A DNA stretch of 64,000 nt, taken from contig JARKPU010000022.1 in NCBI GenBank assembly GCA_029975055.1, positions 124,001 to 188,000 on the forward strand, in the 5' to 3' direction. The position numbers and the translations under genes are program-made. Shown here piece by piece: positions 34,127 through 58,318 of this stretch. This DNA is from Anaerolinea sp. GTDB taxonomy: Bacteria; Chloroflexota; Anaerolineae; Anaerolineales; Anaerolineaceae. Below the pieces are notes generated by a model. It did no database searches. It was not told where the DNA came from and saw only the letters and a program-made list of their open reading frames with translations. Within the stretch, counting starts at the first letter, position 1. Each line of letters begins with the position of its first letter.

Positions 34127-35230
34127 TTAGATGATCTGAAATTCACCGCTGTGATCAAGGTTGTAACCGCGCAAGCCGCCAAGCGCCCGGCGCGCGGCAG
34201 GTGAGCCCAGCCAGCCCACCAAAGCAGCAAACGACCCCTGGCCGGCTTCTTCGGCCGGGAAAACCAGGTCGTAGCTTTCTTGCACAAGGAATTGAAAATC
34301 CAGATTAAAGGCCGCGGCAGCCGATTCCAGAGCCAGGCCGGCATCGGCGCGGCCTTCGGCTACCGCGCGAGCCACCTCTGAATGGGTGGCCTTTTCATCG
34401 GCGTAGCCCTGCACCCTGGAACGGTCAATGCCGAGACGCTCAAGCTGCTGGTCGAACCACACGCGCGTCCCCGAACCGCCTTGACGGTTGGCAAAGCGCA
34501 CACCCGAGCGCGCCAGATCGCGCAGCGTGTGAATACCCAGTGGGTTGCCGGGAGCCAGCACCAGCCCAACGCTGCGTTCGGCCAACCTCACCAGCGCCAT
34601 GCGCCTGCCGGGAAACAGTTTACGAAGGTAGGGCAGGTTATAAGTGCCGCTTTCCGGGTCGAAAAGGTGGCTGCCCGAGAGATCGGCGCGGCCTTCAGCT
34701 AGAGCCATCAGCCCGCCCAGGCTGCCGGTAAAGCTCAATTCCAGCGTCCAGCCTGGGCAGACCTGCTCAAAATGAGTAGACAGCCAGGTCACGGCCAGGT
34801 CATGACTGCCAGCGAAACGCAGGGTGTTTTCAGCCGATGCGCCCTGTGGCTGCTCCTGAACAGCCCGCCAGCGGTCCATCGCCAGGTCCACCGCCTGCTG
34901 GATTTCGGTGCGTGAAAAGCCTGCCGTCAGAACTTCGAGAAGGAAAGCCTCTGCGCGGTGGACCAGCCTGGCACGGCGCAGCGAGGCCTGAGAGGGAACA
35001 TGGCTCGCCTCAATGCGGCCGGCCACATAAGTGCCCCGCCCCGCCCGGCTGGTGACCAACCCCTGCCGGGTCAGGTCCAGGTAGGCGCGCTGGATCGTCC
35101 CCGGAGTACACTGCCAGACGGCCGATTGCTCGCGGATGGTGGGCAGGCGGTCGCCGGGCTTTAAGCGCCCTTCAAGGATCTCCTGTCGGATGTGATCTGC
35201 AATGCGCTGGTAGAGTGTGGGCTGATCCAT
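34127..35230 (-). CDS. GntR-HTH fused to molybdate/tungstate-type PBP-like domain
   Basis: LYQRIADHIRQEILEGRLKPGDRLPTIREQSAVWQCTPGTIQRAYLDL (GntR HTH), then GSHLFDPESGTYNLPYLRKLFPG...FANRQGGSGTRVWFDQQL (PBP-like). Confidence 0.87.
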   Translation of the reverse strand: MDQPTLYQRIADHIRQEILEGRLKPGDRLPTIREQSAVWQCTPGTIQRAYLDLTRQGLVTSRAGRGTYVAGRIEASHVPSQASLRRARLVHRAEAFLLEVLTAGFSRTEIQQAVDLAMDRWRAVQEQPQGASAENTLRFAGSHDLAVTWLSTHFEQVCPGWTLELSFTGSLGGLMALAEGRADLSGSHLFDPESGTYNLPYLRKLFPGRRMALVRLAERSVGLVLAPGNPLGIHTLRDLARSGVRFANRQGGSGTRVWFDQQLERLGIDRSRVQGYADEKATHSEVARAVAEGRADAGLALESAAAAFNLDFQFLVQESYDLVFPAEEAGQGSFAALVGWLGSPAARRALGGLRGYNLDHSGEFQII

Positions 35231-43354: not shown

Positions 43355-43421
43355 ATTGTCTGACAATTGACAATTAACGGAATTGCCATTAAACTGAAAT
43401 ACAGCCTCGATGGTCAGACAA
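43355..43421 (+). promoter_or_regulatory. Promoter flanked by two copies of a GntR-type operator candidate
   Basis: ATTGTCTGACAAT (43355-43367); TTGACA (43367) 17-bp spacer TAAACT (43390); second site TGGTCAGACAA (43411-43421, inverted). Confidence 0.65.
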
Positions 43422-43432
43422 CCAACCCATAT

Positions 43433-44815
43433 ATGCCCACTCTCCTGGTTAAGAATGCCTCCGTCCTGATCACCATGGACGGCTCGCGCCGCGAGATTGC
43501 CGGCGGCGGGCTGTTTGCCCGCGATGGATTCATCGAGCAGGTCGGTCCGGCGGGCGAACTGCCCTCCGCCGCCGATGAAGTCCTCGACCTGAGCGGGTAC
43601 GTGGTCTTCCCAGGGTTAATCAACACCCACCACCACTTTTACCAGACTCTCACGCGCGCGGTGCCCGCCGCGCAAGACGCCAACCTCTTCAACTGGCTCA
43701 AGACGCTCTACCCCATCTGGGCGCGCATGACCCCGGAGGACATCTTCACCTCCACGCAGACTGCGCTGGCCGAGCTGGCCCTTTCGGGCTGCACCACCGC
43801 CTCCGACCATCTCTACCTCTTCCCCAACGGCGCGCGGCTGGATGACGAGATCGCCGCCGCCGCCGAGGTGGGCCTGCGCCTGCACGCCTCGCGCGGCTCG
43901 ATGAGCCTGGGCGAGAGCCAGGGCGGCCTGCCGCCCGACAGCGTGGTGGATAGCGAAGAGCGCATCCTCGCCGATTCGCAGCGCCTGATCGAAACGTATC
44001 ACGACCCAAAGCCCGGCTCGATGCTGCAAATCGTCCTCGCGCCGTGCTCGCCATTCAGCGTCACCGGCGACCTGATGCGCCAGAGCGCCGCGCTGGCGCG
44101 CCAGTATCGCGTCCACCTGCACACGCACCTGGCCGAAACGCAAGACGAAGAGGTCTTCTGCATGGAGAAGTTCGGCCACCGCCCGGTGGGCTACATGCAG
44201 GCGCTGGGCTGGGTGGGCGAAGATGTCTGGTTCGCGCACGCCGTGTATGCCAGCCCGGATGAGGTGCAGGTCTTTGCCCGCACCGGCTGCGGCGTGGCGC
44301 ACTGCCCCAGCTCGAATATGCGCCTGGCTTCGGGCATCGCCCCGTTGACGGCCTACCGGGCCGCAGGCGTCAACGTGGGGCTGGGGGTAGATGGCTCGGC
44401 CTCCAACGACGGCTCACACATGCTGGCCGAGGCGCGCCAGGCCATGCTGCTGCAGCGCCTTTCGGCGGCACTGGGCGGGGCCTCGCTCTCCGGCCAGGGT
44501 GCACCCGCGCTGCTCACCGCGCGCCAGGCGCTCGAACTGGCCACGCGCGGCGGGGCCGCGGTGCTCGGCCGCCCCGACCTCGGCTCGCTCGAGGCCGGCA
44601 AATGCGCCGATTTTGCCGCCATCCGGCTCGACCGGCTGGCCTACGCCGGGGCCTTGCATGACCCCGTCGCGGCGCTGGTTTTCTGCGCCCCGCAGCAGGT
44701 GGACCGCCTGGTGGTCGGCGGGCGAACCATCGTCAAGGACGGCTTGCTGCAGAGCGTCGACCTCCCCCGCCTGGTCGAGCGGCACAACCGCGCGGCCGGC
44801 CGGTTGCTTGCCTGA
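43433..44815 (+). CDS. Amidohydrolase, 8-oxoguanine deaminase/SsnA-like
   Basis: VVFPGLINTHHHFYQTLTRAVPAAQDANLFNWLKTLYPIW; HLHTHLAETQDEE; GLGVDGSASNDGSHM. Confidence 0.85.
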   Translation: MPTLLVKNASVLITMDGSRREIAGGGLFARDGFIEQVGPAGELPSAADEVLDLSGYVVFPGLINTHHHFYQTLTRAVPAAQDANLFNWLKTLYPIWARMTPEDIFTSTQTALAELALSGCTTASDHLYLFPNGARLDDEIAAAAEVGLRLHASRGSMSLGESQGGLPPDSVVDSEERILADSQRLIETYHDPKPGSMLQIVLAPCSPFSVTGDLMRQSAALARQYRVHLHTHLAETQDEEVFCMEKFGHRPVGYMQALGWVGEDVWFAHAVYASPDEVQVFARTGCGVAHCPSSNMRLASGIAPLTAYRAAGVNVGLGVDGSASNDGSHMLAEARQAMLLQRLSAALGGASLSGQGAPALLTARQALELATRGGAAVLGRPDLGSLEAGKCADFAAIRLDRLAYAGALHDPVAALVFCAPQQVDRLVVGGRTIVKDGLLQSVDLPRLVERHNRAAGRLLA

Positions 44816-44891: not shown

Positions 44892-46676
44892 ATGAGAGAT
44901 TTCCGCCTGACCAACTCTCGCGAACTGGTTGACTGCGCCATGGGGCGCACGCCGGCCGACCTGGTGATTCGCGGCGGGCGCTGGGTGTGCGTCCAATCGG
45001 GCGAGGTGCTGCCGGGCACCGATGTGGCCGTCAAGAACGGGCGCATCGCCGCCGTCGGGCCCGATGTGCACCAGACCGTCGGCCCCAACACGCGCATCCT
45101 GGATGCCGCCGGGCGCTACCTGACCCCCGGCCTGCTCGATGCGCACATGCACGTCGAATCGGGCATGCTCACCGTGGCCGAGTTCGCCCACGCCGTCATC
45201 CCGCACGGCACCACCGGCATGTTCATCGACCCGCATGAGATCGCCAACGTCTTCGGGCTGCGCGGCGTGCGCCTGATGGTGGATGAGGCCGCACTCCAGC
45301 CGATCCACATCTTCGTCCAGGTGCCCTCCTGCGTGCCTTCCGCCCCGGGCCTGGAGACGAACGGCGCCGGGCTGAGCGCCGCCGAAGTGCAGGAAGCCCT
45401 CGCCTGGCCGGGAGTGATCGGCCTGGGCGAGATGATGAATTACCCCGGCGTCGCCGGAGGCGACGAAACCGTGCACGCCAAGCTGCAAGCCACGCGCGAA
45501 GCCGGCAAGGTGATCGGCGGGCACTACCCCGCGCTCGACCTGGGCATGGAATTTTCGGCTTACGTGGCGGGCGGCCCGATGGACGACCACGAGGGCACGC
45601 GCCTCGAAGACGCCGTCGCCCGCGTGCGCCAGGGCATGCGCGCCATGCTCCGCTTTGGCTCGGCCTGGCACGATGTGGCCGAGCAGGTGCGCGCCGTCAC
45701 CGAAATGGGCCTCGACCCGCGCCACTTCATCCTCTGCACCGACGACACGCACTCGGCCACGCTGATCGGCGATGGCCACATGGACCGCGCCGTGCGCCAC
45801 GCCATCAGCCAGGGCCTGCCGCCGGTCACGGCCATTCAGATGGCCACGCTCAACACCGCCGAGCACTTCGGCGTCAGCGGTGAGATTGGCCAGATCGCCC
45901 CCGGCCGCTACGCCGATATCCTCATCGTGCCGGACCTGGTCAACTTCCGGCCCGATGTCGTGCTGGCGCGCGGCGAGGTGGTGGCCGAGCACGGGCGCCT
46001 GCTGGCCCGCACGCCGGCGATCACCTACCCCGATTGGGCGCTGCATTCGGTGCACCTGCCGCGCCCCCTGACGGAAGCGGATTTCGCCCTGCGCGCTGCG
46101 GGCAGCGGGCAGCAGACGGCCAACGTGATCGGCGTGATCGAAAACCAGGCCCCCACGCGCCACCTGCGCGTGCCGGTGCGCGCCCGCTCAGGGCAAATCC
46201 GCGCCGACCTCACCCGCGACCTTGCCAAAGCGGCCCTGGTCGAACGCCACCACGGCACGGGCGGCGTGCAGGTGGGGCTGGTGCAGGGTTTTGGCTTCAG
46301 CGAGCCGTGCGGCATGGCTTCCACGGTGGCGCACGACAGCCACCAGATGATCGTCATCGGCACCGACGACGCCGACATGGCCCAGGCCGCCAACCGCCTG
46401 GCGCAGACCGGCGGGGGGCAGGTGGTGGTGCGCCGCGGCGAAATCATCGGCGAGGTGAACCTGCCGATTGCGGGGTTGATCTCCAACGAACCGGCCGAAC
46501 TGGTGGCGCGCGGCGCCGAGACGGTGCTGGCGGGCTTCCGCGCCTGCGGCTGCAAGCTCAACAACCCCAACATGCAGATGAGCCTGCTGGCGCTGGTGGT
46601 CATCCCAGAGCTGCGCATCTCCGATAAAGGCCTGGTGGACGTGCAACGGTTCCAGGTGATCGACGTCCTGGAATAA
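44892..46676 (+). CDS. ade: Adenine deaminase
   Basis: YLTPGLLDAHMHVESGMLTVAEFAHAVIPHGTTGMFIDPHEIANVFG; C-terminal SHQMIVIGTDDADMAQAANRL. Confidence 0.95.
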   Translation: MRDFRLTNSRELVDCAMGRTPADLVIRGGRWVCVQSGEVLPGTDVAVKNGRIAAVGPDVHQTVGPNTRILDAAGRYLTPGLLDAHMHVESGMLTVAEFAHAVIPHGTTGMFIDPHEIANVFGLRGVRLMVDEAALQPIHIFVQVPSCVPSAPGLETNGAGLSAAEVQEALAWPGVIGLGEMMNYPGVAGGDETVHAKLQATREAGKVIGGHYPALDLGMEFSAYVAGGPMDDHEGTRLEDAVARVRQGMRAMLRFGSAWHDVAEQVRAVTEMGLDPRHFILCTDDTHSATLIGDGHMDRAVRHAISQGLPPVTAIQMATLNTAEHFGVSGEIGQIAPGRYADILIVPDLVNFRPDVVLARGEVVAEHGRLLARTPAITYPDWALHSVHLPRPLTEADFALRAAGSGQQTANVIGVIENQAPTRHLRVPVRARSGQIRADLTRDLAKAALVERHHGTGGVQVGLVQGFGFSEPCGMASTVAHDSHQMIVIGTDDADMAQAANRLAQTGGGQVVVRRGEIIGEVNLPIAGLISNEPAELVARGAETVLAGFRACGCKLNNPNMQMSLLALVVIPELRISDKGLVDVQRFQVIDVLE

Positions 46677-46698: not shown

Positions 46699-47445
46699 AT
46701 GGACACGAAAGCAACCGTTATCCACCCATACCAGCGGCTGCAAACCCAACTGGCCGGGTTGATCGCCGCCACAGCCGCGGGCGAGCGCCTGCCCGCCGAG
46801 CCAGAACTGGCGCGCCAGCTGGGGGTTTCGAGGGCCACGCTGCGCGAGGCTATGCGCACCTTCGAGGGCCAGGGTCTCATCCGCCGCCGGCAGGGCGTTG
46901 GCACGTTCGTCGTCGGCCAGCTGCCGGTGATCGAAACCGGCCTGGAAGTGCTGGAGAGCATCGAAAGCCTGGCCCGCCGCATCGGGCTGGAGGTGACGAT
47001 GGGCGACCTGCACATCGAGCGCATCAGCGCCAGCCCAGAACAGGCCGAGGCGCTCAACGTGCCGCCGGGAGACAGCCTGGTGATGGTCAGCCGGGTGATC
47101 AACACCAAAGGGCGGCCGGTGGCTCACCTGGTGGATATCCTCCCCGAAGATATCCTCACCCCCGAAGACCTGCGCCAGGGGTTCACCGGCTCGGTGTTCG
47201 ACCTGCTCCTCCAGCGCGGCGAACCGGCGCTGAGCAACTCCTATACCGAGATCAACGCAGTGGCGGCCACCGCCGAGTGGGCGCGCGCGTTGCAGATCCA
47301 GCGCGGCGACGTGCTGCTCAAGTTCACCGCGCGGCTGTACACCACCGAAGGGCGGGCGATCGATTATTCGCAGAGCCTGTTCCTGCCGGGGTACTTTCAC
47401 TTTCATGTCGTCCGGCGCGCCGGGTCTCAGCCGCCTTCTGCCTGA
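46699..47445 (+). CDS. GntR family transcriptional regulator with UTRA domain (HutC type)
   Basis: RLPAEPELARQLGVSRATLREAMRTFEGQGLIRRRQGVGTFV HTH and C-terminal UTRA-like region. Confidence 0.9.
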   Translation: MDTKATVIHPYQRLQTQLAGLIAATAAGERLPAEPELARQLGVSRATLREAMRTFEGQGLIRRRQGVGTFVVGQLPVIETGLEVLESIESLARRIGLEVTMGDLHIERISASPEQAEALNVPPGDSLVMVSRVINTKGRPVAHLVDILPEDILTPEDLRQGFTGSVFDLLLQRGEPALSNSYTEINAVAATAEWARALQIQRGDVLLKFTARLYTTEGRAIDYSQSLFLPGYFHFHVVRRAGSQPPSA

Positions 47446-47520: not shown

Positions 47521-48471
47521 ATGCGAAGTTTTGCAGGCCGTGACATTCTTTCGCTCAAGGACTTTGAGCGCAATGAGTTTGAGCGAGTCTTCGAAGTGGC
47601 TCGCGAGCTCGAACCGATCGCCCGCAGCCGCCGCAACAGCGACCTGTGCGCCGACAAGACCCTCGTCACCGCCTTCTACCAGCCCAGCACGCGCACGCGC
47701 CTGGCGCACGAAGCCGCCATGCACCGCCTCGGCGGGCATGTCACCGGCTTTTCGGACGCCAAGATGACCCGCGCCGGCGACTGGTACCAGGAATCGATCA
47801 AAGACACGGTCAAGATGCTCGAATTCTACGGCGATGTCATCGTGATGCGCCACTTTCAACAGGGCGCTCCGCACGAAGCCGCGCGCTGGGCTTCCATCCC
47901 CATCATCAACGGCGGCGACGGCTGGGGCGAGCACCCCACCCAGATCCTCACCGATCTGTACACCGTGCTCAAAGAGAAGGGCACCATCGACGGCCTGAAG
48001 TGGCTGGCGGTCGGCGATATGCGCATGCGCACCATGCACTCGCTGGCCTACGCGCTCACCCAGTTCGACTGCCCGATCACCTTTGTGGCTCCGCCGGATA
48101 TGTCGCTCAAGCCGGAGTTCAAAGAAGAGCTCAAGCAGTACAGCCTGAACTTCAAAGAGGCCGAGCACGTCGAGCAGGCCATCCACGAGGCCGATGTCAT
48201 CCTGGTGGAGCCGGTTGTCCAGCCGGATTACACCAAATCGCGCCAGGAAGCCGGCGAACACGGGCAGACCCCCGACAATTACAAGATCACCCGCCAGCTG
48301 CTGGAAACGAAGGCCAAGCCGGGCGCCATCCTGCTGCACTCGCTCCCGCGCATGGATGAGATTCCCCCGGATGTCGATATCACCCGCTGGTCGCGCTACT
48401 GGCAGGAGGCCTTCTACGGCGTGGTGATGCGCATGGCGCTCATCGCCCTCGTCCTGGGCAAGATGGAGTAG
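47521..48471 (+). CDS. Aspartate carbamoyltransferase-like family protein
   Basis: FYQPSTRTRLAHEAAMHRLGG; EHPTQILTDLYTV; LPRMDEIPPDVDITRWSRYWQEAFYGVVMRMALIALVLG. Confidence 0.85.
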   Translation: MRSFAGRDILSLKDFERNEFERVFEVARELEPIARSRRNSDLCADKTLVTAFYQPSTRTRLAHEAAMHRLGGHVTGFSDAKMTRAGDWYQESIKDTVKMLEFYGDVIVMRHFQQGAPHEAARWASIPIINGGDGWGEHPTQILTDLYTVLKEKGTIDGLKWLAVGDMRMRTMHSLAYALTQFDCPITFVAPPDMSLKPEFKEELKQYSLNFKEAEHVEQAIHEADVILVEPVVQPDYTKSRQEAGEHGQTPDNYKITRQLLETKAKPGAILLHSLPRMDEIPPDVDITRWSRYWQEAFYGVVMRMALIALVLGKME

Positions 48472-48544: not shown

Positions 48545-49525
48545 ATGCAGACGTTTTTACACGGGCGCGACCTGATCGGCGACCTTGACTTCAGCAAAGA
48601 GGAAGTCGAGACCGTCCTGGATGTGGCGCTCGACCTCAAACGCAAGCGCGCGCTCAACGAACCGCACGCGTACCTGCGTGATAAGACCCTGGCGATGCTG
48701 TTCTTCTTCAGCAGCACGCGCACGCGCGGCTCCTTCGAGGCCGGCATGGCTCAACTCGGCGGCCACGCGGCCTTCATCGAATCGCGCACCACGCAGATCT
48801 CGCACGGCGACACCGCCAAGGAGATCGGCGAGATCCTCGGGCGCTACTACGACGGCCTGGCCATCCGCCACGTGGAGTGGACCAAGGGCAACCCCTATCT
48901 CAACGAGGTCGCCAAATACTCGCGCGTGCCGGTGTTGAACATGCAGTGCGATATCTACCACCCCTTCCAGTGCCTGGCCGACCTGCTGACCATCTGGGAG
49001 AAGAAAGGCCGCGACCTGCGCCGCAAGAAGATGGTCGTCTCGTGGGCCTATGCCGCTTCGTACCAAAAGCCCATGTCGGTGCCGCAGAGCCTGATCCTGC
49101 AAATGCCGCGTTTCGGGCTGGATGTCGTCCTGGCGCACCCGCCAGAGTTCAAATTGATGCCCGAGATCATGGACCAGGCGCGCGAACAGGCGCGCAAATT
49201 CGGCACCGGCTTTGAGGTGGTGGATGACATGGACGAGGGCTTCAAGGACGCCGATATCGTCTATGCCAAATCCTGGGGCGCCATGGTTCACACGCCCGAT
49301 GAAAAGCAGGGCGCCGAGATCATCCAGAAGTACTCGAGCTGGATCACCGACCAGCGCCGCATGCGGCTGGCCAAGAGCGACGCCATTTACATGCACCCGC
49401 TCCCCGCGGACCGCAATATCGAGGTCACCGATGAGGTGATCGACGGGCCGAATTCGGTCGTCTATGACGAAGCCGAGAACCGACTCCACGTGCAAAAAGC
49501 CGTGATGGCCCTCACGATGGGCTGA
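48545..49525 (+). CDS. YgeW-like carbamoyltransferase
   Basis: FFFSSTRTRGSFEAGMAQLGG; LNMQCDIYHPFQCLADL; VSWAYAASYQKPMSVPQSLILQMPRFGLDVVLAHPPEFKLMP; GFKDADIVYAKSWGA; resembles remembered E. coli YgeW segments. Confidence 0.82.
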   Translation: MQTFLHGRDLIGDLDFSKEEVETVLDVALDLKRKRALNEPHAYLRDKTLAMLFFFSSTRTRGSFEAGMAQLGGHAAFIESRTTQISHGDTAKEIGEILGRYYDGLAIRHVEWTKGNPYLNEVAKYSRVPVLNMQCDIYHPFQCLADLLTIWEKKGRDLRRKKMVVSWAYAASYQKPMSVPQSLILQMPRFGLDVVLAHPPEFKLMPEIMDQAREQARKFGTGFEVVDDMDEGFKDADIVYAKSWGAMVHTPDEKQGAEIIQKYSSWITDQRRMRLAKSDAIYMHPLPADRNIEVTDEVIDGPNSVVYDEAENRLHVQKAVMALTMG

Positions 49526-49557: not shown

Positions 49558-50514
49558 ATGTCTGAAAAGAAGATCGCTGTCATCGCTATTGGTGGTAACT
49601 CGCTGATCAAAGACAACGCGCACCAGCGCATCGAAGACCAGTACCTGGCCGCCAAGGAGACCACCTACCACATCGCCGATATGATCGAATCCGGCTGGAA
49701 CGTGGCCATCGGGCACGGCAACGGGCCGCAGGTGGGGCTCATCCTGCGCCAGTCGGAAGTCGCGGCGCACCACGAGAGCATCCCCGAAACTCCGCTGGAT
49801 GTTTGCGGCGCCGAGAGCCAGGGGCTGATCGGCTACCTGCTGCAGCAAAACCTGCAGAACGAGCTGTACCGCCGCAAGATCCAGCAGAACGTCGCCACCG
49901 TCATCACCCAGGTGCTGGTGGATGTGAACGACCCGGCTTTCCAGCACCCCACCAAGCCGATCGGCGGCTTCATGGATGAAGCCGAGGCCAAGCGCAAAGC
50001 CCACGACCTGGGCTGGACGATCGTGGAAGATGCCGGGCGCGGCTGGCGGCGCGTGGTGGCCTCGCCGGACCCGAAAGAGGTCGTCGAGATCGACACCGTC
50101 AAAGCGTTGATCAACGCCGGGGTGATCGTCATCACCGTGGGCGGCGGCGGCATCCCGGTGATCGACAAGGGCGGCGGCGAGTACGTCGGTACGGCGGCAG
50201 TGATCGACAAAGATTACGCCTCCAGCCTGCTGGCCCAGGAAATCCATGCCGACCTGTTCGTCATCTCCACCGCGGTGGAGAAGGTGGCCCTCAACTACGG
50301 CAAGCCCAACCAGGTGCTGCTCGACCGCATGACGGTGGCCGAAGCCAGGCAGTACATGGCCGAAGGGCACTTTGCCAAGGGCTCAATGCTCCCCAAGATC
50401 CAGGCCATCCTGCGCTACCTCGAAAAGGGCGGCAAGCAGGCCCTGATCACCAACCCGGAGAATATCGGCCGCGCCCTGAAGGGCGAGACCGGCACCTGGG
50501 TGGTGGCGGAATAA
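49558..50514 (+). CDS. arcC: Carbamate kinase
   Basis: IAVIAIGGNSLIKD; GHGNGPQVGLILRQSE; VITVGGGGIPVI; AVIDKDYASSLLA. Confidence 0.96.
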   Translation: MSEKKIAVIAIGGNSLIKDNAHQRIEDQYLAAKETTYHIADMIESGWNVAIGHGNGPQVGLILRQSEVAAHHESIPETPLDVCGAESQGLIGYLLQQNLQNELYRRKIQQNVATVITQVLVDVNDPAFQHPTKPIGGFMDEAEAKRKAHDLGWTIVEDAGRGWRRVVASPDPKEVVEIDTVKALINAGVIVITVGGGGIPVIDKGGGEYVGTAAVIDKDYASSLLAQEIHADLFVISTAVEKVALNYGKPNQVLLDRMTVAEARQYMAEGHFAKGSMLPKIQAILRYLEKGGKQALITNPENIGRALKGETGTWVVAE

Positions 50515-50632: not shown

Positions 50633-51388
50633 TCAGAGGCTCTTGCAGTAAATCTGAATGGCCTCGCGCAGGAAAGGGGCCAGCTCCGGGTGGATGCGCA
50701 CGAAGGTGGCGTTGAACTCCGGGTCGTCGTTGTAGAGGTCGCCCAGGCCGAGGAGAATTTCTTTGGTCGGCTCGTAGAAGTTGCGCAAATTCCGGTGCCA
50801 GCGGGCGACGCCCTCTTGAGCCTGCGGGCTGGCCGGCCCCAGCGGCATGCTGGCGACCAGGTCGAGGTAAATCTGCCGGGCTTCTTCGAACACGGCTTTT
50901 TTCTTTTCGGGCGAATACGAAGCCCAGCGCTTCTGCGATTCGCTCACATTCGCCCGGCCCCAGCGGCGGGCAGCCTCTTCTTCATATTGTTTTTGCTTTT
51001 CTTCGCTGAAGCCCTCGAACAACTGTTGATCATCCATGGCGGCGTTTCCTTTCAGGTAAGAGATGGTGCGGTCTACCGTTTGAACCAGGGCAGCGAGCCG
51101 CTCCTGGCGCGCCAGCAGCGCCTTGCGGTGCTGTTCGAGCGCCGCCAGCAGGTCAAAGCCCGGCTCGTCGAGGATGACCTGGATCTCCTCCAGGCTCAAC
51201 CCCAGCTCGCGCAGAAAGAGGATCTGCTGCAGGCGCAGAAGCGCCGCGCGGTTGTAGATGCGGTAGCCGTTATCGGGGTTACGGTCGGGCCTCAGCAGGC
51301 CGATCTCATCGTAGTAATGCAGGGTGCGCGCGCTGACCCCCGCCACCCTGGCGAGCTGCCGGACTGTGTATTGCCTTTGCGTATCCAC
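50633..51388 (-). CDS. MerR family regulator with TipAS-like C-terminal domain
   Basis: YTVRQLARVAGVSARTLHYYDEIGLLRPDRNPDNGYRIYN; C-terminal helical effector region; GTG start at 51388. Confidence 0.9.
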   Translation of the reverse strand: MDTQRQYTVRQLARVAGVSARTLHYYDEIGLLRPDRNPDNGYRIYNRAALLRLQQILFLRELGLSLEEIQVILDEPGFDLLAALEQHRKALLARQERLAALVQTVDRTISYLKGNAAMDDQQLFEGFSEEKQKQYEEEAARRWGRANVSESQKRWASYSPEKKKAVFEEARQIYLDLVASMPLGPASPQAQEGVARWHRNLRNFYEPTKEILLGLGDLYNDDPEFNATFVRIHPELAPFLREAIQIYCKSL

Positions 51389-58287: not shown

Positions 58288-58318
58288 CTGTCAGACAATA
58301 TGCAGTCTGGGTTATAAT
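58288..58318 (+). promoter_or_regulatory. Promoter with operator-like CTGTCAGACAAT near -35
   Basis: CTGTCAGACAAT 58288-58299; TATAAT 58313-58318. Confidence 0.5.

Follow-up and report, generated by a model that had tools for sequence, protein, structure and literature searches.

The window, by which the whole stretch of 64,000 nucleotides analyzed here is meant, contains an operon that starts with a gene for 8-oxoguanine deaminase and ends with one for carbamate kinase. Its third gene encodes a GntR-family regulator with a UTRA effector domain, and two similar words, O1 and O2, bracket the promoter in front of the operon. The features are listed below with their coordinates and strand.

43355-43367, strand not applicable: O1, ATTGTCTGACAAT, a 13-bp odd palindrome, conserved in five of five genus members
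43356-43366, strand not applicable: 11-bp core of O1, TTGTCTGACAA, with its final base directly before TTGACA
43367-43372 and 43390-43395, + strand: promoter, TTGACA and TAAACT separated by a 17-bp spacer; hexamers and spacer conserved, offset to O1 fixed
43411-43421, strand not applicable: O2, TGGTCAGACAA, with one mismatch compared with TTGTCNGACAA
43433-44815, + strand: 8-oxoguanine deaminase, first gene of the operon (NF006055, 689 bits, cut-off 532)
44892-46676, + strand: adenine deaminase (TIGR01178, 500 bits, cut-off 472.5), with an Adenine_deam_C domain
46699-47445, + strand: GntR-family regulator with a UTRA effector domain, third gene, proposed reader of O1 and O2
47521-48471, + strand: aspartate-transcarbamylase-type carbamoyltransferase (TIGR00670, 256 bits, cut-off 237)
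48545-49525, + strand: ornithine-carbamoyltransferase-like (OTC-like) enzyme (best model 267 bits, under its cut-off of 306)
49558-50514, + strand: carbamate kinase, last gene of the operon (NF009007, 433 bits, cut-off 266)
58288-58298, strand not applicable: third operator-like site, CTGTCAGACAA, 5' of a glycosyltransferase gene

A check of the sequence found the two words, the promoter hexamers and the 17-bp spacer exactly where an initial annotation of this DNA had placed them. The words had been described there as inverted copies; two copies are indeed present, but the label says little, since each copy is itself a near-palindrome. The center of O1 lies near position -41.5, and transcription is predicted to start at ~43402. 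O2 begins 16 bp past the -10 hexamer, and the ATG of the deaminase gene at 43433 follows 11 bp beyond O2; the TTG at 43367 merely opens the longest open frame. The -35 hexamer is at consensus or one base off. Two sigma-70-like matches, this promoter among them, lie in the segment 43300-51750, where 1.3 are expected; this count is not above chance, unlike the conservation of the promoter in all five genus members. The third site is located just 5' of a TATAAT (58313-58318) and the glycosyltransferase gene, at the end of a purine/ABC cluster, and in genome G004 the same gene is preceded by an exact TTGTCAGACAA (L143:3051). Also encoded in the window are a MerR regulator with a TipAS domain, between the carbamate kinase and BMP transporter genes (50633-51388, - strand), and a second GntR-type winged-helix protein of 367 amino acids (34127-35230, - strand).

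When up to one mismatch to TTGTCTGACMA was allowed, four matches were found in the window vs. 0.93 expected, i.e., O1 on both strands, O2, and the site at 58288. The probability that such a site, and thus O2, occurs by chance within 66 bp after O1 is ~0.002. A genome-wide scan, which the initial annotation had proposed as a check, bore out the motif for exact copies: the 4.59-Mb genome contains six copies of TTGTCWGACAA, compared with ~0.6 (0.58-0.68) expected (P ~3e-5 to 8e-5). It did not do so for copies with up to one mismatch, of which there were 49 vs. 44 for a reversed-pattern control. Because the latter show no clear genome-wide excess, only exact sites, together with conservation, were used.

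Orthologs of gntR were taken from relatives and named genomes, nearly all of which are titled Anaerolineae or other Chloroflexota. In the 93 distinct regions upstream of the operons that contain these orthologs, all palindromes of the form 5+k+5 were counted without a prior motif. TTGTC-1-GACAA ranked first with 49 upstream regions, as compared with at most three for any palindrome in shuffled controls, and the palindrome ranked second (16 regions) is a shifted form of TTGTC-1-GACAA itself. Among the 50 loci with the deaminase as first gene, 46 have an exact operator, which agrees with the earlier reading of the sites as operators; three of the other four have one mismatch, and L086 has two. 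Most other upstream regions start at adenine deaminase, with the start of the deaminase operon located farther off or beyond the contig. An alignment of five species of the genus showed that O1, the -35, the 17-bp spacer, and the -10 are all conserved. O2 is clear in three of these species and missing or degenerate in two.

The geometry was analyzed in the 49 loci with an exact site, where the background is 0.003 per position. The operator ends exactly at the -35, without a gap, in 30 loci, and in 15 an operator close to the transcription start begins 4-5 bp past the -10; either fixed offset is present in 41. Many loci carry O1 only, and 11 keep the start-proximal site alone on the same promoter. 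Both sites are found together in four loci, with 44-45 bp between them. Since both fixed offsets recur among these loci, bracketing of the promoter is a recurring design. The dual-site repression layout that had been suggested for the window is upheld in this respect, but the downstream copy is not general, being clear in three of five species of the genus, and repression is what we infer. DNA looping at a fixed helical phase was considered and rejected, as the spacing of paired sites varies (14-15, 26-29, 44-45, and 50-57 bp). A fixed promoter geometry was also sought at the other genes of the regulon and was not found there.

The operator is linked to the UTRA-type GntR protein by its position in other genomes. 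In operons with gntR as the first gene (L078, L094, and L109), it is located upstream of gntR. Distant orthologs elsewhere in the class, with ~45-53% identity, have a GTC-N-GAC palindrome directly 5' of gntR in 16 of 21 cases, among them a lineage variant, T[TC]GTCAGACGA, of which one clade has an inverted pair directly behind a TATAAT. In contrast, GTC-N-GAC is absent upstream of all 28 ordinary UTRA regulators (p = 7e-9 by Fisher's test, in which related sequences were included), and two of these have N4 palindromes instead (TTGTCTAGACAA and TTGTGTACACAA). A further UTRA protein (L353), only 36% identical but sharing the helix residue, shows ATGTCAGACAA downstream of its TATAAT. Genomes with an ortholog contain on average 3.6 exact sites vs. 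1.2 in those without (p = 1e-4), although, the compared sequences being related by descent, these p-values overstate independence. In G039 and G052, which have a divergent ortholog, no exact site was found. Thus, the earlier proposal that the operon's own GntR protein owns the sites is in line with the position of the operator wherever gntR leads or the ortholog is distant; the two words are very probably true docking sites for the regulator of the same operon, an assignment that is well-supported by comparative genomics. A divergent gntR clade (L279-L284, L288, and L395) displays an inverted pair, TTGTCAGACGA ... TCGTCTGACAA, after TATAAT and before gntR, and shows clade-specific changes in the helix-turn-helix (HTH), e.g., Gln65 to His.

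The regulator contains a GntR winged-helix domain (PF00392, 57.6 bits, cut-off 27) and a UTRA domain (PF07702, 90.1 bits, E=1.4e-25), and no match to the FCD domain (PF07729) was found in it. Its predicted fold is of the HutC type, with YvoA, DasR, and PhnF as top solved structures for a model of moderate quality (pLDDT 78, pTM 0.61). Most HutC-type regulators bind GT-N4-AC and most FadR-type regulators GT-N3-AC, in a study whose HutC set held no Chloroflexi (PMC4494728). Hence, the family argument of the initial annotation, which derived the dyad from HutC/UTRA membership, does not hold. The conserved operator is GT-N3-AC and as such is a deviation inside the HutC/UTRA subfamily, for which GT-N4-AC is typical rather than universal and in which membership rests on the domain. 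TTGTCNGACAA has the TKGT/ACMA boxes of FadR/FCD-type operators, though the protein is no FadR/FCD member. The regulator in the window has Glu50 at HTH position 43, and all 101 aligned orthologs have Glu or Asp there, as do 27 of 28 local FCD proteins but only one of 29 UTRA controls. The best solved match for the HTH is PdhR. Profile comparison placed the whole HTH nearer to UTRA than to FCD by ~11 bits, which argues against a complete HTH grafted from FadR; only the residue at position 43 and the operator are FadR-like.

Exact sites were also found upstream of other genes, which were called heuristically as the longest plausible open frames. In several genera they precede the same gene families, namely those for diaminopropionate ammonia-lyase (five loci), formate-THF ligase (four), the FAD subunit (four) and the Fe-S/Mo subunits (two) of XDH, YgeY (three), glutamate dehydrogenase (three), a PreA/UacX-like reductase (three), and parts of BMP/ABC transport systems. 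In the source genome, the fhs site comes directly after a TATAAT, and the one for xdh lies ~340 bp before the FAD subunit. Approximately 20 of 88 sites are intragenic, consistent with some background, and the glycosyltransferase, glutamate dehydrogenase, and a dual-specificity phosphatase are targets not obviously related to purines. Judged from the genes next to the sites, the target set looks like a purine-catabolism regulon, and throughout a class of Chloroflexota the regulator seems to govern genes of purine breakdown by means of a DNA word that is typical of another subfamily. Further exact operators of the source genome (C4:477532, C4:479024, and C45:3154; L027 and L030) are found near genes for an MFS transporter and a Usp-domain protein, the dual-specificity phosphatase, and a Mg-chelatase-like AAA protein; the operator at the phosphatase gene is also present in G002 (L144). 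The PreA/UacX-like gene, of the dihydroorotate-dehydrogenase family, has the operator in three genomes (L186, L187, and L211). A report on reductive uric acid degradation describes the Chloroflexota clusters as lacking UacX (PMC12507026), and this gene may be the absent reductase.

The sequence comparison itself shows the motif and how it is conserved, its fixed position at promoters, the joint conservation of motif and gntR, and a set of targets mostly related to purines, whilst direct binding, repression over activation, and the identity of the inducer are what we infer. The UTRA-type GntR protein encoded at 46699-47445 likely has TTGTCNGACAA as its operator; it would repress its own operon until released by a purine and would govern a wider purine regulon. 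In this model, a GntR dimer would bind O1, in contact with the -35, and, in this lineage, would also occupy the weaker O2 just past the transcription start. The bound dimer would block RNA polymerase and thereby repress the operon for the deaminases, the regulator, the carbamoyltransferases, and carbamate kinase, and the location of gntR within the operon would result in negative autoregulation. Binding of a purine or purine-derived metabolite to the UTRA domain would release the repressor, and further purine-catabolism genes may be controlled by the same regulator via single copies elsewhere in the genome. The target genes make a purine, or an intermediate of its degradation, the probable inducer.

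Whether O2 contributes here can be weighed separately. It is off consensus, absent or degenerate in two of the five species of the genus, and located farther downstream than usual (16 bp instead of ~5 bp past the -10), and it could be a chance or decayed word without function next to a genuine operator O1. This is unlikely, given the low chance probability calculated above and the presence in G003 and G004 of a site matching O2 with almost the same spacing (54-57 bp). Moreover, a second site within two mismatches is present in 23 of 49 loci, whereas shuffled regions hold one in 8.6% of cases. The downstream copy thus appears, from these comparisons, to be real yet lineage-specific rather than general. 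As to its mode of action, the regulator is most likely a repressor, because a protein at the start-proximal sites can hardly do other than block, the -35, being close to consensus, requires hardly any assistance, and part of it would lie under a dimer bound at O1. The main rival is that the same regulator, at the same sites, mainly activates from O1 by contacting the polymerase from ~-41.5, with O2 as the repressing site. The flush position of O1 at the -35 in 30 of 49 loci, its center, and the many loci with O1 only would also suit a class-II activator, and E. coli FadR activates at fabA by contact of the dimer with the polymerase. Nevertheless, a -35 at or one base from consensus hardly requires an activator, and in the 11 loci with the start-proximal site alone, binding would interfere with the very same promoter, which makes activation from O1 quite improbable.

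A further rival is that the motif has another owner, most plausibly an FCD (FadR-type) GntR protein. The same word is bound by AlkR, an FCD protein, and by LhgR (see below), and the source genome encodes one FCD protein. However, G056 (94% complete) has seven exact sites and no FCD protein, the less complete G001 (84%) likewise lacks one, and, unlike in the distant gntR orthologs, the palindrome is upstream of none of the 26 FCD genes examined. The occurrence of operators without FCD genes thus disfavors such an owner, which we consider very unlikely.

It is the effector domain that defines a subfamily of GntR regulators, and the literature ties every such subfamily to an operator spacing. The group described here appears to break that tie. 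On balance, we lean slightly toward the view that a class-wide UTRA clade has adopted the FadR-type Glu/Asp at position 43, and with it GT-N3-AC, and that purine deamination, purine breakdown, and one-carbon recovery are linked in Anaerolineae by a single regulator. If so, the reading head, and not the effector domain, would at least in part determine the spacing of GntR half-sites. No prior report of the motif, or of a purine regulator of the UTRA type, turned up in a literature search; the protein is a candidate regulator of purine breakdown for Anaerolineae, and its motif can be used to find missing pathway genes.

Among known systems, the reductive uric acid degradation cluster (PMC12507026, where the passages retrieved by a word search name no regulator) shares with the window operon a carbamoyltransferase and carbamate kinase, and in relatives the operator precedes YgeX, YgeY, XDH, and PreA/UacX-like genes. 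However, the amidohydrolase (124 of 444 bits for SsnA) and the carbamoyltransferases (196 of 453 bits for YgeW) of the window score far under the curated cut-offs. Thus, the operon is not a canonical SsnA/YgeW uric-acid cluster, although the regulon of its relatives includes several pathway enzymes. With HutC, PhnF, DasR, and NagR/YvoA, the regulator shares the domain order and fold, a winged helix plus UTRA, but these HutC/UTRA proteins mostly have GT-N4-AC operators (PMC4494728) and Gln or Arg at HTH position 43, where the regulator and its orthologs have GT-N3-AC and Glu or Asp. The recognition-helix Glu is instead a likeness to FadR/FCD proteins, and so is the word itself: the footprint of the FCD regulator AlkR, ATTGTCAGACAAT, is the 13-mer of O1 on the opposite strand (PMC12042122), and LhgR protects the same 11-mer as the O1 core (PMC8206213). 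Unlike AlkR and LhgR, the window protein has no FCD domain, belongs to a different phylum with different target genes, and has an HTH nearer to that of UTRA proteins.
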